A stretch of DNA of 64,000 nt from Limnomonas spitsbergensis. Taxonomy: Eukaryota; Chlorophyta; Chlorophyceae; Chlamydomonadales. A model generated the notes under the pieces. That model ran no database searches. It worked only from the letters and a program-made list of their open reading frames with translations, and had not been told where the DNA came from. Every line of letters begins with the position of its first letter. Within the stretch, counting starts at the first letter, position 1. The translations under genes and the position numbers were made by a program. This document shows positions 48,523 to 62,290 of this stretch, piece after piece. The stretch spans positions 1 to 64,000 of the forward strand of contig JAYJMM010000020.1 in the NCBI GenBank assembly GCA_037349105.1, read 5' to 3'.

Positions 48523-48589
48523 CGATGCCCGGTTAAAGGAAGCGGCAACCTCTAGATGAGATCTGACGATCTAGATGTGTTGCCCCTGC

Positions 48590-49430
48590 CGGATCCATTC
48601 TGCTGAAGACGCCGCACATAACAATATCCTCACGGCCTCGACCTCCAGCTGTGCCGCCTCCGCATGCCTGACAGCCGCTGCTAGCTGCGCCGCCGAGATG
48701 CTGCGACACGCTCTTTCTGCCGAGGACGCCACACACAGTAAGCTCCTCACAGCTTCATCCACCAGCTGTGCAGCCTCCGCATGCCTGACAGACTCTGCTA
48801 GCTGCACCGCCGTGGTGCCCCTGCCAGCCCTTTTCTGTTGAGGACGCCGCGAAAAACAAGCTCCTCATATCCGCCTCCACCAGCTGTGCCGCCTCCGCAT
48901 GCCTGATAGCCGCTGCTAGCTGAGCTGCCGGCCATCTCGCGACCCGCTATATTCTGCCGAGGACTCAGCGCAAAGGAAGCTCCTCACAGCCTCATCCACC
49001 AGCTGTGCCGCCTCCACATGCCCGACAGCCGCTGCTAGCGCCGCCGTGGTGCCCCTGCCCGCTATTTTCTGCCGAGGACGCCGCACAAAACAAGTTCCTC
49101 ACAGCCTCATCCACCAGCTGTGCAGCCTCCGCATGCCCGACAGCCGCTACTAGCTGCAACGCCGTCAATCTCGCGACGCGCTCTGTTCTGCTGAGAACGC
49201 CGCACATAACAAGCTCCTCACAGACGCATCCACCAGCTGCGCAGCCTCCGCATGCCCGACTGCGAGCTGCGCTGCCATGGTGCTGCAACAATCCCTATTA
49301 TGCCGAGGAGGCCGCACATAACAAGCTCCTCACAGCTGCATCCACCAGCTGCGCAACCTCCACATGCCCGACAGCCGCTGCTAGCTGCGCCGCCGTCAAT
49401 CCCCCGCTGTCCCTCGCGCCTAGCAGAAGC
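48590..49430 (-). repeat. Seven tandem copies of the ankyrin gene exon-5 tail (~117 bp unit)
   Basis: On plus, the anchor C(T)CCTCA recurs at 48,624, 48,743, 48,861, 48,980, 49,095, 49,214 and 49,326, giving periods of 112-119 bp. On minus each unit encodes a version of TAAQLAAAVGHVEVAQLVD, a degenerate ankyrin helix pair, followed by LLCAASSAE. The rightmost unit is the in-frame end of the ankyrin gene. Because most periods are not multiples of three, successive copies fall into different frames, so the array is not one long repeat protein. A GTGAGG hexamer, a possible 5' splice site, is kept in six of the seven units. Confidence 0.85.
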
Positions 49431-52400
49431 TCACCACACTGACGCCGCGAGGCCGCCGCCGCAAAGGCCTCCACACCCACTGTCACATCCCAACGACATT
49501 CCCTGCCCTGCTGCGGACAAACCGCTGATGCAGCGCAATCCTTGAGGCCGTCCCGCCTGCCCGTGCCGGAGCAAGTGCAGCAGTGAGCCAGCAGCTCCCC
49601 GACCACCTCCAGGTGCCCATCATAGCAGGCCCAGTGCAGGCCTGTCCGCCCCTCGTGGTCTGCAGCCTGCTCTAGGACCCCTGGGTGACGCAGGAGCGCA
49701 CGGACCACCTCGATGTGGCCGTTGTGGCAGGCGACATGGAGGCTGGTGCGGCCTTGCCGGTCGGCGGCGTTGACCTGGAGGCCTGGTTGATGCAGCAGCA
49801 GCTCTTGAACGACGTCCAGCAGGCCGCGGCTGCATGCGTAGTGCAGGATCGTGCGACCGTAGTGCCTGCACACAGATATGATAGAAATATTTATATATTA
49901 AATATTTAGGAGGCCTGGTTGATGCAGCAGCAGCAGCTCTTGAACGACGTCCAGCAGGCCGCGGCTGCAGGGGTAGTGCAGGATCGTGCGACCGTAGTGC
50001 CTGCACACAGATATGATTGAAATGTTATTATACAAATATTTAGGAGGCCTGGCTGATGCAGCAGCAGCAGCTCTTGAACGACGTCCAGTAGGCCGTGGCT
50101 GCAGGCGTAGTGCAGGATCGTGCAACCGTGGTGCAGGCACACAGATATTATTGCAGCATTAACATAAATATCTAGGAGGCTCTGTTGATGCAGCAGCAGC
50201 TCTTGAACGACGTCCAGCAGGCCGCGGCTGCAGGCGTTGTGCAGGATCGTGCGACCGTGGTGCAGGCACACAGAATTACCCGGATATTAGTATTTAAATC
50301 CAGCCAGGTTTCAGATAGACTGTTCAATCTCGACCCTGTCTGCTGCGTGGACGTCTGGTCTAGGGTCAGATCTCTTTAAAGACGCATCTGATGCTGAATT
50401 CCAGTGGATTTTAGTGCCTTACGTATTGAACCGTACACCCGAAACCCGTGTGCATCCCTCTGTGTGTGTCACTCCCCCTGCATGGATAAATCAACAAACA
50501 CCTCTCGAGATTGGCATTGAACAATTGATTTGGGGGAAATGGGTATCCTTAACAGGAATAATGAATGCATACAGTACCAGAGAGGAGGCAATGAAATCTA
50601 CGGTAAGCTAGCGGCAACACTGTACCTCTCTGATAATGTATCCGTCAAATTAATAAAGAGTCAGATTTATCCCTTCGCCGTGACCTATAAAAGGTCATAT
50701 GCTATGAATCTCTGATGATGCACCAATCAGCCCTTTTCAGGGCCAGAGTAACACTCCCGTAGATTTGCTTGCCTTCCCTCATAATCAATGTTGTTAGGGG
50801 TTAAGGGATCCATGAATTTACTAATAATCGATTGTCGATGCCAATTATTAGTCGGAAATTCATAGGTTTTGTGGACAGTTTGCCCTGAGTGCAGCATTGA
50901 AACAAACCATGTTTCAATGCCTGAGGGAAGGCAAATCAACTATACGGTATTTCCTCAAACACATGGTAATTCCCGGTGACCCTCTCTGTTATTTACTTCA
51001 CCAGCCCGCTGCATTGACATTGGCCAATCCAGCTCAGGATCACTTTTGTAAGCCCTTGCAGCCCATCCTGGCAATTAGCAACACGGCGACTCTCTCATTT
51101 AATTTACTTCACCTGCCCCCTGCGTTGACATTGACCAGTCCGGCTAAGAATTACATAACTCACTAGGCCACAGCCTAACAACCAGCAAAACTGCCCCCCT
51201 GTCTGCTCCTTCATCATACCTGCCTGCTGCATTGACATTGATCAGTCTGGTTAAGGATCACTTAACACACTAGGCCATAACCTGACTCTGTTCCACAAGT
51301 GCCCCTCTCAGATCATGCATCGCACCTGTCTGCTGCATTAACATTGACCAGTCAAAATCACATACCTCACAACCAGCAAAACCGCCCCCCTCTCTGACCC
51401 TTAATTATACCTATCTGCTGCAATCTGCATTGACATTGAATAGTCCGGTGTAGGATCACAGTACTCACTAGGCCATAAACTGACTTTCTACAACAGTGCC
51501 CCTCTCATATCATGTGTCGCACCTGTCTGCTGCGTTGACATTGATGCCGGGCTGCTTAAGCAGCAGCGACCAGGCCATGGACTTGTACGTGAACACAGAC
51601 ATGGCCAGTGGCGTCCAACCCTCCTTATCCTGCACGATTCAAAAGACAGGGTGAGGGTTGTGTTACATGGACATGTTTGGTGTTCAGAATCCGAGTCTAA
51701 TACGGGATGGGGGGTTCGTAACCCTTCAAGCGCAATTAGGCAAAAGCGACCTAACCGTCTGGGACCCAGCGCACTTCTGAAACAGGGTAAGGGTCCAGCA
51801 TCCAGGTTAAGGGGGCTGTAGAAGCGAGGGGGCGTCATGTGAAGGGCCTCACCCCGATGTCGGGGTCTAGGCAGTGTGTGTATGCAGCTGGAGATATCAG
51901 CGAGTGCCCGGGGTTCATTATATACAGATCTCTCTGTGAGGGACTAGGTACGGCTCTATGTGAATGGCCTAGCTTAACTCCATGTCGGGGTCCAGGCAGA
52001 TTGCCTCAGCAGCTGGAGCTACCAGCGAGTGCTCGAGTTTCATTACATAGCAATCCCACTGTCAGGGACTAGGTTAGGCGCCATGTCCTGGCTTTACCTC
52101 CAAGTTCAGGTCCAGGCCAGAGTGCATGATCAGCTAGCGCCATCAGCTACTGACAGGATTTCATCACTTAATGATCCCCTAGCTGAGGCCATGATTAGCT
52201 CCGCGTGAAGGGCCTAGCTTACCTCCATGTTCAGGTCTAGGCCAGGGTGCATGATCAGCAGGTTCCAACAGGTAGTGTCAGGATGTCCTCAATAAATGAT
52301 CCCCTAGCTGAGGCCCTCCTTAGCGCTGTGTGAAGGGCCTAGCTTACCTCCAAGTTCAGGTCCAGGCCAGGGTGCCTCAGCAGCTCGCGCATGACGTCTG

Positions 52401-55400
52401 GGGATTTCACTGCGGCGGCCAAGTGGAGCGCAGAATTTCTCCGCCAGGAGGTGACCGCATTGACCTGGAGTTGGGAGCAAAGAGGGGTGCATCCTTGTGT
52501 CAACAATCAGACAAAGAGTGTACCGTATGACTGTATGCTAGCTGAATAAAGATTTCCAAATAATTCGTTTTTTCCGGAATATTTCCTCCGCCATGATGTG
52601 ACCGCGTTAACCTAAAATTGGAGGCAAAGAGTGGTGCACGCTGGTGTCAACAATGCGAGCGCGTTCTAGCCCACATATATTCCGTAACATTCCAATATTT
52701 CGAAAACAAGTTCCGTAGATACGGTTAGCCTGCTGGTTTGGCGAACCGTATCTGTATGGCGAATCCGTATTAGTATGGGGAACCGTAATTGGGTTTGCGT
52801 AGGGTTAAGCATGTTGTGCGGCTTGTGGAAGCCTTGGGAATTCGTAAAAAATGGGGAAATGGGAAAATGGGAAGTCGTAGGCGAGTTGGTTGGCGGTGGT
52901 TGGGAAGTTGAGGAGGCTACCAGGGTCCTTGTAAGCGGCTGCGCCTTTTTGTGGGTTGTATTGTGAATGTCATTCTTATCATTTTGGAGGCAGGAGAAGC
53001 ATGATGAGAAGAAGCAGAAGCAGGATGCGGCGCAGGCTGGTTTAATTAATGTTGTATGGGGGTGAGGGTTATGCCTGAGGGATACATCAAATATCCATTA
53101 TTTGGGGTGAGGGGCGCCAACATTTAAATATTAAGAATATCGAAGATCGCTGTCCTCGCCACCGCCTGTCGTCGTTCGCGTTCCTTCATTCGACGTCTGG
53201 TACAAAGGGTACCGCATTTTTTACGAACCGGTACAAGACCTTAGCTTTCAAGCGCTGTTCGTAAAGAGGCTGCACATTCGAGGTATAGTGTGATGGCTTA
53301 ATATGTCACAGGGTCTGCTCTCTTTTTCCGATCTCTCTTCAGACCTGGGTCCTTATTTCGATCTCATGCGATGGCCTTCTGGTTCCGATCTCTCATCTGG
53401 TCAGCCTTCTTATTTCGATCTCTCTTCTGATATGTGTTTATATTTCGATGTCATGTGATGGCCTTCTGGTTTCAATCTCTCATCTGATATGCTTCCTTGG
53501 GGATCGTGCCCCCCTTGAAAGGCCAGCTTGATATGGACCCAGCCTTCATGATGGCTGAGGAGCCTGGGCTGGGGCCAGCACCCACTGCTTACGAAAGGGC
53601 ACGCGCAATGGACGGTTGGCTGCTGAAAGAGCTAGATACACAGGGGCTCAGAGCAGTGTCTGAGGGGGGCGTGAGAAAGGGCAAGGGGTCCTCTAAGTGT
53701 GTCTTCAAGGGCTGCTACTCTGTTAAGTGCAAGCCCTGAACTCATTTGTTTCGGTAGTGCCGGTACTATATCTACATTGACATCAATAGGAGGCCCTGCA
53801 TGTTGTAACGGCACCATCTTGAGGGTCATCAGTGCTGTCGATTGCCCCGATGATTTTGGTTGTGGAACTGAATGTAATACATGGCAGTTGTGAGGCTTTT
53901 AATACTGCTCGGAAGCGAATTTTGGTGCCGAGGGAACGGATTAAACAAAAAATCTGCCCAGAGGGCAGCATTAAATAAATAGTTAATTGATACCCGAAGG
54001 AAGGCAAATCAAATCTACGGTTTTGTTTCCCTGGAATGATTTCTCCGCCACGAGCTGATGGCTTTGGGCTGCAGGTGAACACCAAGAGAGGTGTCTGATG
54101 GAGTCAATAGGGTGAGTGCTTGCTAGCCCCGCACAAACAAAAAATCAGATCAATCCTTTCCCGAAATAATTCTCCACCAGCAAGTGTCCGCGTTCATCTG
54201 AAGTTAAAAGCAAAGAGAGATACGTAGTGCCCAGAATTTTTGTTAGTGACATTCGGAATTATTTTTGGTAACCAGAAGCAGCGAGTTCTGACAGAGTTCT
54301 TGTTGAAGAGCGCGCCGCAGCCGCTAAAATTTTCCCGATCCTAATTGATTACGTCTATTTTCGTTACCGCACTACTGAACCACAGCTTTGCCCAATTAAT
54401 TGTTTGGTTACCACTCTGGTTTCCACTTTGGTTACCACTCGTAACCAGTAACCACTAAAATAGGCCCTACCTAGTGCACTGTAGTGTAATGAAATGTTTG
54501 TGTACGCTAACCCACACAGATATTCCTTCATCTCCTCTGCAGGCCACAGCGGTCACATGGTGACCGCTGGGGCCTGCAGAGGATATCAGTGCCTCTCCAC
54601 TTAGGCATATTAGAGTTCTATGTCCACAGCATGCTCTACATCGCCAAAAATACTCCCGGCCACTTCCTGTCTTCATGACGATATCAGGACATGAATAACT
54701 TAATAGTATTGATATCAGTAATACACATACCCCGGTGTGTGAACGATTCAACAATAGAATGTCCCCCTCCGGAATTGAATTGGATAAAGAATTGTAAACA
54801 CTCCAGGGCTTTATGAACAAACCTCAATGTCAGGCGCCGTCAGCAGCATCCTCACGACGTCTGCGCGGCCATACTGGCTCGCCACGAGCAGCGGTGTGAG
54901 CTGGTCCGGGCACCCTAACTCCGAAAACCTATTGACGTCGACACCTGGCACCGTCAACAAGTATTTCACGACCTCAGCGCTGCCGCTCTCTGCACAGGCC
55001 TGGTGCAACAGAGTCTCTTGGTGGCCGCTGGAGGTGTCGACAGAGTTGACATCGGTGTGATAAACCTCCAAAAGCAGCCGCAAGACTGCGAGTGAGCCGT
55101 TGCGGCTGGCCGCGAAGGCGGCCGCCGCACCGCCGCGCTGCGCTACCAGCCATGCGGCAGTCATATCCGGGCTGCGGACGAGGGCAGATGTGGCGCGGGA
55201 TGTGTGGGAGAGGGACCTGACGTCGGGCCCCGAGGGCAGGTGCTGCGAGATGATTTCGAAGAGCAGCTCGTTGGGAAGGTGGTTGAAGAGCAGGCAGCAG
55301 TCGGATGAGGTATCTGCAAGGGTTGCAGAGGGAGTATATACGTTGAGATCAGTGCAGAGATCAGTCGACGCCCCGCAGGTGTGTTCGGGTTCAAGAGATA

Positions 55401-55854
55401 AACAGACAGTGCAGCCTGGGCTGAGGCTCTATAAGTCCAGTTTTCAGGGAAAAGTGAGGTATATGGAAATAATACAGCATGGACCCAAGCTCCGTCCGCG
55501 CTTTGACTAATATCAATGCAGAGTTCAGTAAGCTGCATTGGGCATGCGCATCTGGACATGCATAGGCAAGGGCAGGCTTGCAGGGGTATCAACAACTGCT
55601 GTCAAGATTCATGGTGGCATCATATGCGGGCATGAGAGGTGCTCATGGGTCCTAGCCAGGCACAGGCAAGTGGGTGTGACGACATTCAAAATGGCTGAGC
55701 GAAGAAAACCCATATTGGCGTGACTAAGGGAGTAAGTAAGGGGCACACCATCATCCATTTCCTAGCAAAGCGATGTACCTGAGACAGAGGCGACAGCAGG
55801 AGATACAGTTGTGGCCATCGCTCCGCTGCCGATTTTAAACCCCCTCGAAGCCAT
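49298..55854 (-). CDS. F-box/ankyrin-repeat protein, five-exon gene model
   Basis: The coding exons, in gene order, are 55,854-55,779, 55,313-54,823, 52,464-52,348, 51,629-51,523 and 49,865-49,298. All introns are GT-AG: donors CAG/GTACAT, GAG/GTTTGT, GAG/GTAAGC and CAG/GTGCGA; acceptors TTGCAG, CTCCAG, GTGCAG and GTGCAG. Phases agree at every junction and give 452 aa ending in TAA. Residues about 36-75 look like an F-box (LPNELLFEIISQHLPSG), which in known proteins recruits substrates to SCF ubiquitin ligases through SKP1. Ankyrin repeats, protein-binding helix pairs, follow at about 88-117, 124-153, 164-192, 198-228, 231-261, 266-294, 300-330 and 334-362, with a degenerate one near 412-440. 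Clear examples are GRTILHYACSRG and GRTSLHVACHNGH. The F-box call is by eye. An alternative end exists: a GTGAGG donor after 49,334 would leave phase 0 and continue the gene further left. Extra exons in the 2.4-kb intron 2 cannot be excluded. Confidence 0.8.
49777..50275 (-). repeat. Four tandem copies of the exon-5 acceptor and exon head (~133 bp unit)
   Basis: Copies span 49,777-49,908 (real exon start), 49,909-50,042, 50,043-50,174 and 50,175-50,275 (partial). Each reads, on minus, an AT-rich intron end, CTGTGTG, the splice junction, then about 85 nt of exon encoding (H)YGRTILHYACSRGLLDVV and QELLLHQ. Copies end in GGCCTCC followed by AT-rich DNA. The real copy and the adjacent one keep CAG/GCACTAC. 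The two further ones read GCCTGCACCAC and so lack the acceptor AG. Confidence 0.9.
50280..50990. other. Middle of intron 4, with nested inverted repeats
   Basis: No exon is visible. Between 50,759 and 50,947 lie three stems. Outer arms TTGCCTTCCCTCA and its complement are at about 50,769-50,781 and 50,922-50,935. An inner imperfect stem runs from ATGAATTTACTAATAAT to its complement at about 50,812-50,863. A perfect 11-bp stem GCATTGAAACA with a 5-nt loop is at 50,894-50,920. A related GGAAGGCAAATCAA segment recurs near 53,998. Confidence 0.6.
50995..51545 (-). repeat. Six tandem copies of the exon-4 tail and donor (~105 bp unit)
   Basis: The plus-strand anchor GC(A/G)TT(G/A)ACATTG recurs at 51,011, 51,122, 51,229, 51,335, 51,428 and 51,532. 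On minus each reads CAATGT(C/T)AA(C/T)GCAG, the end of exon 4 (INVNAAD), followed by a junction and GTGCGA, GTATGA, GTATAA or GTGAAG. The copy at 51,532 is the real exon end. The others lie inside intron 4 as decoy 5' splice sites. Confidence 0.88.
51839..52400 (-). repeat. Five tandem copies of the exon-3 tail and donor (~123 bp unit)
   Basis: Units start near 51,841, 51,962, 52,086, 52,207 and 52,332 on plus. On minus each has GGCCTGGACCTGAACTTGGAG-like sequence (exon 3 end, GLDLNLE) and then a junction. The real donor and the nearest copy read GTAAGC, the next reads GTAAAG, the fourth has lost GT (TTAAGC) and the farthest has GTGAGG. Decay broadly increases with distance from the real exon. 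Confidence 0.88.
52430..54220 (-). repeat. Scattered copies of the exon-3 acceptor and exon head
   Basis: The real exon 3 starts at 52,464 with CTCCAG/GTCAATGCGGTCACC, and TGGCGGAGAAAT follows. Related junctions lie upstream in intron 2 at 52,612 (TTTTAG/GTTAACGCGGTCACA), 54,069 (CTGCAG/CCCAAAGCCATCAGC) and 54,198 (CTTCAG/ATGAACGCGGACACT). Each keeps a TGG(C/T)GGAG exon segment of about 35 nt and intron-side sequence like CTCTTTGC or CTCTCTTG. All three lose the frame soon after and are decoy or dead exon heads. Confidence 0.82.
52660..54030. other. Intron 2 interior
   Basis: Within this part of intron 2, 53,327-53,493 is a ~30-bp minisatellite of about six units alternating TATTTCGATCTC and CCGATCTCTC(A/T)TC. 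53,533-53,700 on plus has an open frame (MDPAFMMAEEPGLGPAP and onwards) that looks protein-like in composition but is not recognised and has no clear splice borders. GGTTACCACTCTGG-type repeats lie near 54,410-54,450, just right of the exon-head copies. No ankyrin exon is visible. Confidence 0.45.
54533..54583. repeat. Near-perfect 24-bp inverted repeat (hairpin) in intron 2
   Basis: The left arm at 54,533-54,556 begins TCCTCTGCAGGCC and ends CAGCGGTCAC. The right arm at 54,560-54,583 is its reverse complement except for one base, with a 3-nt loop (ATG). It could form a cruciform or RNA hairpin. The tiny loop argues against a standard miRNA precursor. Confidence 0.85.
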
Positions 55855-60590: not shown

Positions 60591-60934
60591 ACCTCTCCCT
60601 GGCTATGCGCCCAGCCCTACATCCTGCAAGTTACATATATAAACATCCTCAACCCTTCACCCCCCCCCTGCTTTTACTTTCAGGTTTATGGCATTCTGGG
60701 GCCTGGCGCTGCTGGTCCTCTCCCTGGCTATGCACGCAGCCCCTAAATCCTGCAAGTTACATATATGGACATCCCCAACCCTTCATTCCCCCCCTGCTTT
60801 TACTTTCAGATACATGGCATTCTGGGGGCCATCGTTGCTGGTCCTCTCGCCGGCTGTGCACGCAGCCAAATCCCCTTAAAATCATGACCAAGGAATCCCT
60901 ACACCCCAAATCACCCCCTCGTGTTTACTTCTAG
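60591..60934 (+). repeat. Tandem copies of a splice acceptor plus hydrophobic exon head
   Basis: A partial copy (60,591-60,640) and two fuller copies with acceptors TTTACTTTCAG near 60,684 and 60,810 precede the complete exon at 60,935. Each copy holds a C-rich tract, the acceptor, and then a segment encoding MAFWGLALLVLSLAMHA or MAFWGPSLLVLSPAVHA. It ends in ATCCTGCAAGTTACATATAT or similar intron-like DNA. This is the same arrangement as the exon-head copies of the ankyrin gene, on the other strand. Confidence 0.82.
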
Positions 60935-61029
60935 GTACATGACGTTCTGGGGCCTGACGCTGCTGGTCCTCTCCCTGACTGCTTCTTTAATGGATGACAT
61001 CATGTGTGCAGTCAGTGTATCAGCAACAG
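60935..61029 (+). CDS. Internal exon of an unrecognised membrane protein
   Basis: The exon is bordered by TTTACTTCTAG and CAACAG/GTAAAC and is 95 nt long: one base, 31 codons, then one base. It encodes YMTFWGLTLLVLSLTASLMD and continues DIMCAVSVSAT, a hydrophobic helix fit for a membrane span. Two copies of its first part lie just upstream, and only this one reads through to a donor. The other exons of the gene are not identified with confidence. A possible later exon starts at 62,790 after CCCACAG (GLAFVISLAML) and ends before GTAAGG. No family is recognised. Confidence 0.5.
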
Positions 61030-61612: not shown

Positions 61613-62290
61613 AGCATGGCTGGCCACAAATGGTGTCACCGGCCACAGGCCAGTGTGTAGCTGACATGTAGCTGAGTCTCGAAAAATGAACACCATGTTC
61701 TGGTCTGGTGTCTGGAAAAGCTGACTGAACCCCTGGCTTGTATACACCATTCCAGCACCCCCATTGTGACTTGGTGCAGGAATCAAAGCTGCGTTTTCTG
61801 GAGGAGTTCAGGAAGGCGGAGTGTGCCTGTCGGTCTGGTCTTATCGCTTGCAAAAGCTGACTGGCGCCTCAACTTGCATGACGGTCCGGTACCCACCTCA
61901 TGACCTGATGCAGGAACCAAGGCAGCACCACCCAGAAGCCAGAAGAAGGGCAGAACACAGCTCCTGGGCTTATCGGTGGCATGCCTGGCCGACGTCCTGG
62001 CTCGCATATCACGTTTCACTGATTTCCTTGTGACCTGATGCAGGAATTAAGACTGCGCCACCCGGAGGCCAAAATAAGGGAGGAGGACAGCTCCTAGGCT
62101 TATCGGTGTCAAGGCTGGCCGATGATCAGGCTTGCATATAATGGTCCTGTCCCCTCCTTGTGACCTCATGTAGTATCTAAGGCAGCTCCTTTAAGAGGAC
62201 AGAAGAGGGGCAGAGCACAGCGCCTGGGCTATTCGGTGGCATGCCTGGCCGACGACCTGGCTTGTGTCACCTTCTCCTTTGCGAACGTCG
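61190..62290 (+). repeat. Six-unit degenerate array, possibly copies of the exon tail and donor
   Basis: The anchor TGTGACCTGATGCAGGAA and variants recurs at 61,199, 61,420, 61,765, 61,899, 62,029 and 62,159; the last four are about 130 bp apart. Each unit then has AAGRCNGCNCC, a GGAGGCC-like block and GGGCTTATCGGTGGCATGCC-like sequence. The exon tail at 61,015-61,060 (AACAG/GTAAACAAGGCCGCGCC, then AGGAGGCCAGGAGC) aligns in outline, so the array may derive from it. This link is weaker than in the ankyrin gene. Confidence 0.65.

Follow-up and report, generated by a model that had tools for sequence, protein, structure and literature searches.

The window analysed here comprises the first 64,000 nucleotides of contig C20 in a 260-Mb assembly of 124 contigs and opens with approximately 527 copies of an 82-bp satellite (positions 1-43265, contig start), whose unit contains a plant-type, TTTAGGG-like sequence; repeats of this type suggest that the DNA comes from an alga or a plant. 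On the minus strand it carries an ankyrin-repeat gene, for which five exons with GT-AG borders modelled from the sequence join into a 452-codon open frame:

55779..55854, minus strand: exon 1 (first in-frame ATG at 55854; open joined frame, GT donor)
54823..55313, minus strand: exon 2 (both edges free of arrays; matched by the own-genome protein comparison)
52348..52464, minus strand: exon 3 (CAG acceptor and GTAAGC donor; frame and ankyrin alignment)
51523..51629, minus strand: exon 4 (modelled in the joined frame)
49298..49865, minus strand: exon 5 (stop codon TAA at 49300-49298)

A Pfam search of the gene product at E 0.001 returned ankyrin families. The preliminary description of this DNA had spoken of an F-box/ankyrin gene; the ankyrin part of this assignment stands, but no F-box was found in the product at the same threshold, the F-box being a resemblance seen by eye. 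Three predicted relatives, P0001, P0003 and P0004, are 39, 34 and 38% identical to the product, respectively. The alignments of all three cover the joint between exons 2 and 3, those of P0001 and P0004 also cover the exon 3/4 joint, and in the exon 4/5 region P0001 alone aligns, with extra repeats between. These relatives are remote proteins without gene structures and do not date the introns. In a protein comparison within the genome itself, no close second copy of the gene appeared among the 93 of 180 candidates that were scored, the other loci in this set showing 30-52% identity to it, and the gene's own exon copies, located in its introns and downstream, emerged as separate matches. The repeats in and next to the gene are the following:

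51839..52390, minus strand: exon 3 tail and donor, real unit plus four copies of ~125 bp (TRF and self-comparison)
50980..51544, minus strand: exon 4 tail and donor, real unit plus five copies of ~85-113 bp (TRF and self-comparison)
49777..50278, minus strand: acceptor and exon 5 head, real unit plus three copies of 129-135 bp (TRF and self-comparison)
52435..52654, minus strand: exon 3 acceptor and head with the nearest copy, 147 bp apart (self-BLAST)
54023..54237, minus strand: exon 3 acceptor and head, two weaker copies at a distance of 1.6-1.7 kb upstream (62-77% identity)
48577..49401, minus strand: array at the 3' end of the gene, including the last codons of exon 5, ~7 units of ~117 bp, continuing downstream beyond the stop codon (TRF)
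53301..53498, minus strand: array in intron 2 without exon contact, 87-bp unit (TRF and self-comparison)

The preliminary description had placed arrays at the exon 3 tail, the exon 4 tail, the exon 5 head and the exon 3 head, with five, six, four and four units, respectively. Self-comparison recovers all of them at these places, as does TRF with the exception of the exon 3 head, and the unit counts agree if the real unit is included. The exon 3 tail array gives a self-match with an E-value of 1e-76, and the exon 4 tail array, all five copies of which keep the GT, has in part a two-unit period of 197 bp. The exon 3 head set consists of the real unit and three scattered copies, one of which (near 54068) is weak; its pieces near 52654-52581 (E 1e-12) and 54237-54039 (E 3e-8) were detected by self-BLAST only and are absent from TRF. 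Ladders of splice-site copies, as described earlier, are present overall, but they are incomplete at exon 5, where one of the three head copies keeps the AG and the other two have CT instead, and at exon 3, where the two outermost donor copies are degraded.

In all four splice arrays the repeat unit spans the modelled exon-intron boundary, and the modelled junction coincides with the exon-proximal unit, which agrees with the earlier proposal that the real junction sits at the array end touching the exon. The self-comparison suggested in the preliminary description has been run, and the repeats do contain exon sequence: 22-104 bases in the five exon-edge arrays and 22-89 in the four splice arrays, the tail copies of exons 3 and 4 carrying only ~20-45. 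Intron 4 contains arrays of both kinds, one at each end, as had been noted, and the two are unrelated. The statement that every side of the gene is affected goes too far, as self-comparison reveals no array flanking exon 1 or exon 2 and none at the exon 4 head. The 3'-end array, which runs past the stop codon, is a fifth exon-edge array that the preliminary description did not contain, and the intron 2 array is the one without exon contact among the six that were counted, those with units of at least 87 bp. An exon edge is touched by the other five. Random placement, with up to 105 exon bases allowed, predicts such contact for 13-18% per array, and the probability of at least five contacts in six is 0.0005, a value computed post hoc. 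The proportion becomes 5/8 once the two short-unit TRF arrays that were left out (12 and 19 bp) are added, and 4/5 if the exon 3 head pair, detected by self-BLAST and not by TRF, is omitted.

Similar arrays occur elsewhere in the genome. The 200 kb adjoining the window contain 43 merged arrays with periods of 40-500 bp, together 9.4% of the sequence, and the period is 60-170 bp in 30 of the 43. Among 12 other ankyrin loci (43.7 kb, self-matches read by eye), arrays at putative exon edges are found at two, L046 and L050, for which the gene models are predictions. At L046 an exon tail with the donor GTGAGTCT recurs on the donor side in five units that are 137-187 bp apart; this 8-base donor is identical in all five units (1738-2472), and telomere-like CCCTAAA runs lie within the array and upstream of it. 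At L050 a CCCGCAG acceptor with an exon head forms two units, 126 bp apart, on the acceptor side. With the ankyrin gene, L046 and L050 taken together, both 5' and 3' boundaries, as modelled or predicted, are affected in several genes. The remaining arrays at the 12 loci are situated apart from the matched reading frame or form coding ankyrin repeats within it, except for one with 17-bp units, which lies at its end. A 17-bp minisatellite of ~880 bp at L037 (2165-3048; the same stretch is found from position 3164 of L026) starts within the final bases of an open ankyrin frame, and open frames of 3832, 3125 and 2140 codons at L003-L004 and L013-L014 resemble transposable elements. The window itself holds a further candidate:

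60592..60975, plus strand: candidate array with an acceptor-like AG and the open sequence that follows, three units of 126 bp (TRF)

Pfam yielded nothing below E 0.4 for this candidate, and any gene there is putative. A 130-bp array of 2.8 units at 61901-62262, with an acceptor-like GATGCAG-GAA in two units, may also be an exon-edge array.

The preliminary description knew of no named system with this design, but one has been named in amphioxus (PMC3087553). Amphioxus "mirages" are minisatellite-like tandem duplications of exon-intron boundaries, at both 5' and 3' edges, present in Adh3, the globin genes BflGb6 and BflGb9, TnC and PGBD5; the BflGb6 units measure 150-160 bp and are 81-100% identical, AG or GT is kept in many units though not in all, RT-PCR suggests regular splicing, and a role in intron gain has been proposed (PMC3087553, PMC3902484). 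The arrays described here share with them the boundary-spanning unit, the copies on the intron side, many of which have AG or GT, and the occurrence at both edges and in several genes. They differ in that the genome is of the TTTAGGG type and not that of a lancelet, in being known from the DNA of one assembly, in having copies more diverged than those of BflGb6 and in affecting several edges of one gene as well as its coding 3' end. The exon-edge arrays are therefore a new case of an already known structure.

Other systems are related more loosely. In human segmentally duplicated genes, minisatellites that cross exon-intron boundaries lengthen exons or introns; this likeness is accompanied by differences, since the human units average 30 bp and were found via recent paralogues and with RNA support (PMC2812944). 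In the potato RdRp gene, a tandem duplication over an intron-exon border supplies splice sites and a new intron arises, whereas the ankyrin gene only lengthens existing introns (PMC4974935). Apart from this single potato duplication, we found no report of exon-boundary minisatellites in algae or plants in the open-access literature, which does not prove their absence. In the polyubiquitin gene UBC, tandem units carry dual-specific AG-GT splice sites and coding monomers are variably included (PMC10809524); the units described here likewise carry such sites in tandem, but they are partly intronic and lead to stops. A repeat gene with dual-specific splice sites, in which intron length should be a multiple of the unit and one sequence should act as both donor and acceptor, was considered for the present locus and rejected, as intron 3 is 718 bp long with units of ~125 bp and the arrays of intron 4 are unrelated.

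We consider it probable, at roughly 0.8, that the arrays are mirage-type minisatellites, which arose by recurrent tandem duplication across exon edges and were tolerated via exon-proximal splicing. The genome is rich in tandem arrays, many with 60-170 bp units, and local duplications of segments of ~100-150 bp spanning an exon edge, presumably generated by slippage, unequal exchange or break repair, would repeatedly have crossed such edges. The copy adjacent to the exon would stay intact and supply the donor or acceptor in use, and the surplus copies would remain in the intron or behind the stop codon, where they would lengthen the intron and decay. Duplications of this kind would be tolerated because splicing would take the exon-proximal site; events reaching deeper into the exon, or leading to use of a distal copy, would give a truncated protein and be removed by selection, so that the arrays left behind would flank an intact exon from within the intron. 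Consistent with this view, all 15 decoy borders (two of which lack the AG) would lead to a premature stop if used. Hence, a full-length protein requires the exon-proximal site, provided that the gene is expressed. Divergence of the copies from the real unit is 8-39%, and the nearest copy is the most similar to it in three of five arrays (exon 3 tail, exon 5 head and L046); in the exon 3 tail, for example, similarity is 0.82 for the nearest copy versus 0.73, 0.71 and 0.63 for the others. Several points argue against the mirage interpretation or its splicing component: in the exon 4 and 3' arrays the second copy, not the nearest, is closest to the real unit; the exon 4 decoys, judged by eye, resemble a donor no less than the real site does; the edge enrichment is post hoc and shifts with the choice of arrays; and kinesin genes, described below, nearly lack large exon-edge copies. 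The earlier proposal that repeated exon-edge duplication lengthened introns and left decoys fits the self-matches, the exon content and the decoy analysis. Its link to intron gain is not borne out: the duplications copy existing exon-intron borders, existing introns have been lengthened, and nothing indicates a new intron.

Ankyrin genes expand through repeat duplication, and the copies could instead be real or recently real coding exons, the gene being longer than modelled or the arrays being relics of a longer coding array. All seven units at the 3' end are open in the homologous frame, although their spacings are not all multiples of three, and an open frame is likewise present in the first two head copies of exon 5, which have a spacing of 129 bp (43 codons). 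Within the 3' array, similarity among units is 0.80 over the exon-derived part and 0.46 over the short remainder (shift p 0.008), but that remainder amounts to ~12 columns at the alignment edge. Copies 2-7 of the 3' array show a tendency towards synonymous substitutions (36 N : 23 S versus 39.7 : 17.6 expected, P 0.07) and contain no stops against 1.7 expected (P 0.19); as neither codon test is significant, coding constraint in this array was rejected. Moreover, the short exon portion of the tail copies at exons 3 and 4, the stop met by every tested extension, and the exon 5 head copies, which by eye end without a good donor and of which two of three lack the AG, make coding exons an unlikely explanation. 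That the assembly produced the arrays artificially is scarcely credible: long tandem arrays can be misassembled, and the window does open with ~43 kb of satellite, but the divergence among copies is not expected from misassembling one unit, and comparable arrays are present on other contigs.

Selection might also keep the decoys, which would then tune splicing through unproductive products with premature stops, as every decoy border would yield, or through the excision of long introns in steps at AG-GT sites. Of 22 copies from seven arrays at four loci, one of them a putative gene, 19 retain the splice dinucleotide, compared with 10.8 expected (p 0.006). The signal is weaker without L046, whose units were anchored on the donor (15/18, p 0.024), and for the ankyrin gene alone (12/15, p 0.07), and these p values are optimistic because the copies have a common ancestry; in addition, the acceptor has been lost from two of the three exon 5 copies. 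In four of five splice arrays, similarity among copies is higher over the exon-derived than over the intron-derived part, but for substitutions only the Fisher p is 0.11, and the fifth array (60592-60975) shows the opposite direction. Constraint on the exon-derived parts, for which early window ranks were 4-16 of ~120-130 (47/128 in one rotation), is not claimed in view of this Fisher value. Recursive splicing was rejected as well: the exon 4 copies are mostly AG-GT, yet those of L046 are GG-GT. Taken together, selected decoys appear very unlikely, and neutral decay of the copies remains the simplest reading. Equally hard to credit is the stronger view that exon edges are preferred duplication sites, that the decoy ladders were selected to regulate splicing, for example by directing transcripts into decay, and that functional mirages exist genome-wide outside the chordates.

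As mirage-type minisatellites, the arrays would place an amphioxus-type structure in a genome that looks like that of a plant or alga, where it affects several edges and the coding 3' end of one gene and, probably, two or more further genes. How the spliceosome chooses among near-identical tandem sites, and how long introns originate, can thereby be addressed directly in one organism. In kinesin genes, duplicated exon pieces of at least 20 residues are nearly absent, with one overlap (21 residues) in a set of 139 matches from 50 clusters, a search that is blind to short edge copies; large exon-edge copies are thus not general in this genome. A protein kinase search, in which 121 of 1187 first-look candidates were scored, gave 140 matches, with one overlapping pair recognized by eye. 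At G000:C36:1439951-1440937, two kinase matches 0.6 kb apart overlap by 28 profile positions, and one of them contains internal stops; this may be another exon-edge copy.
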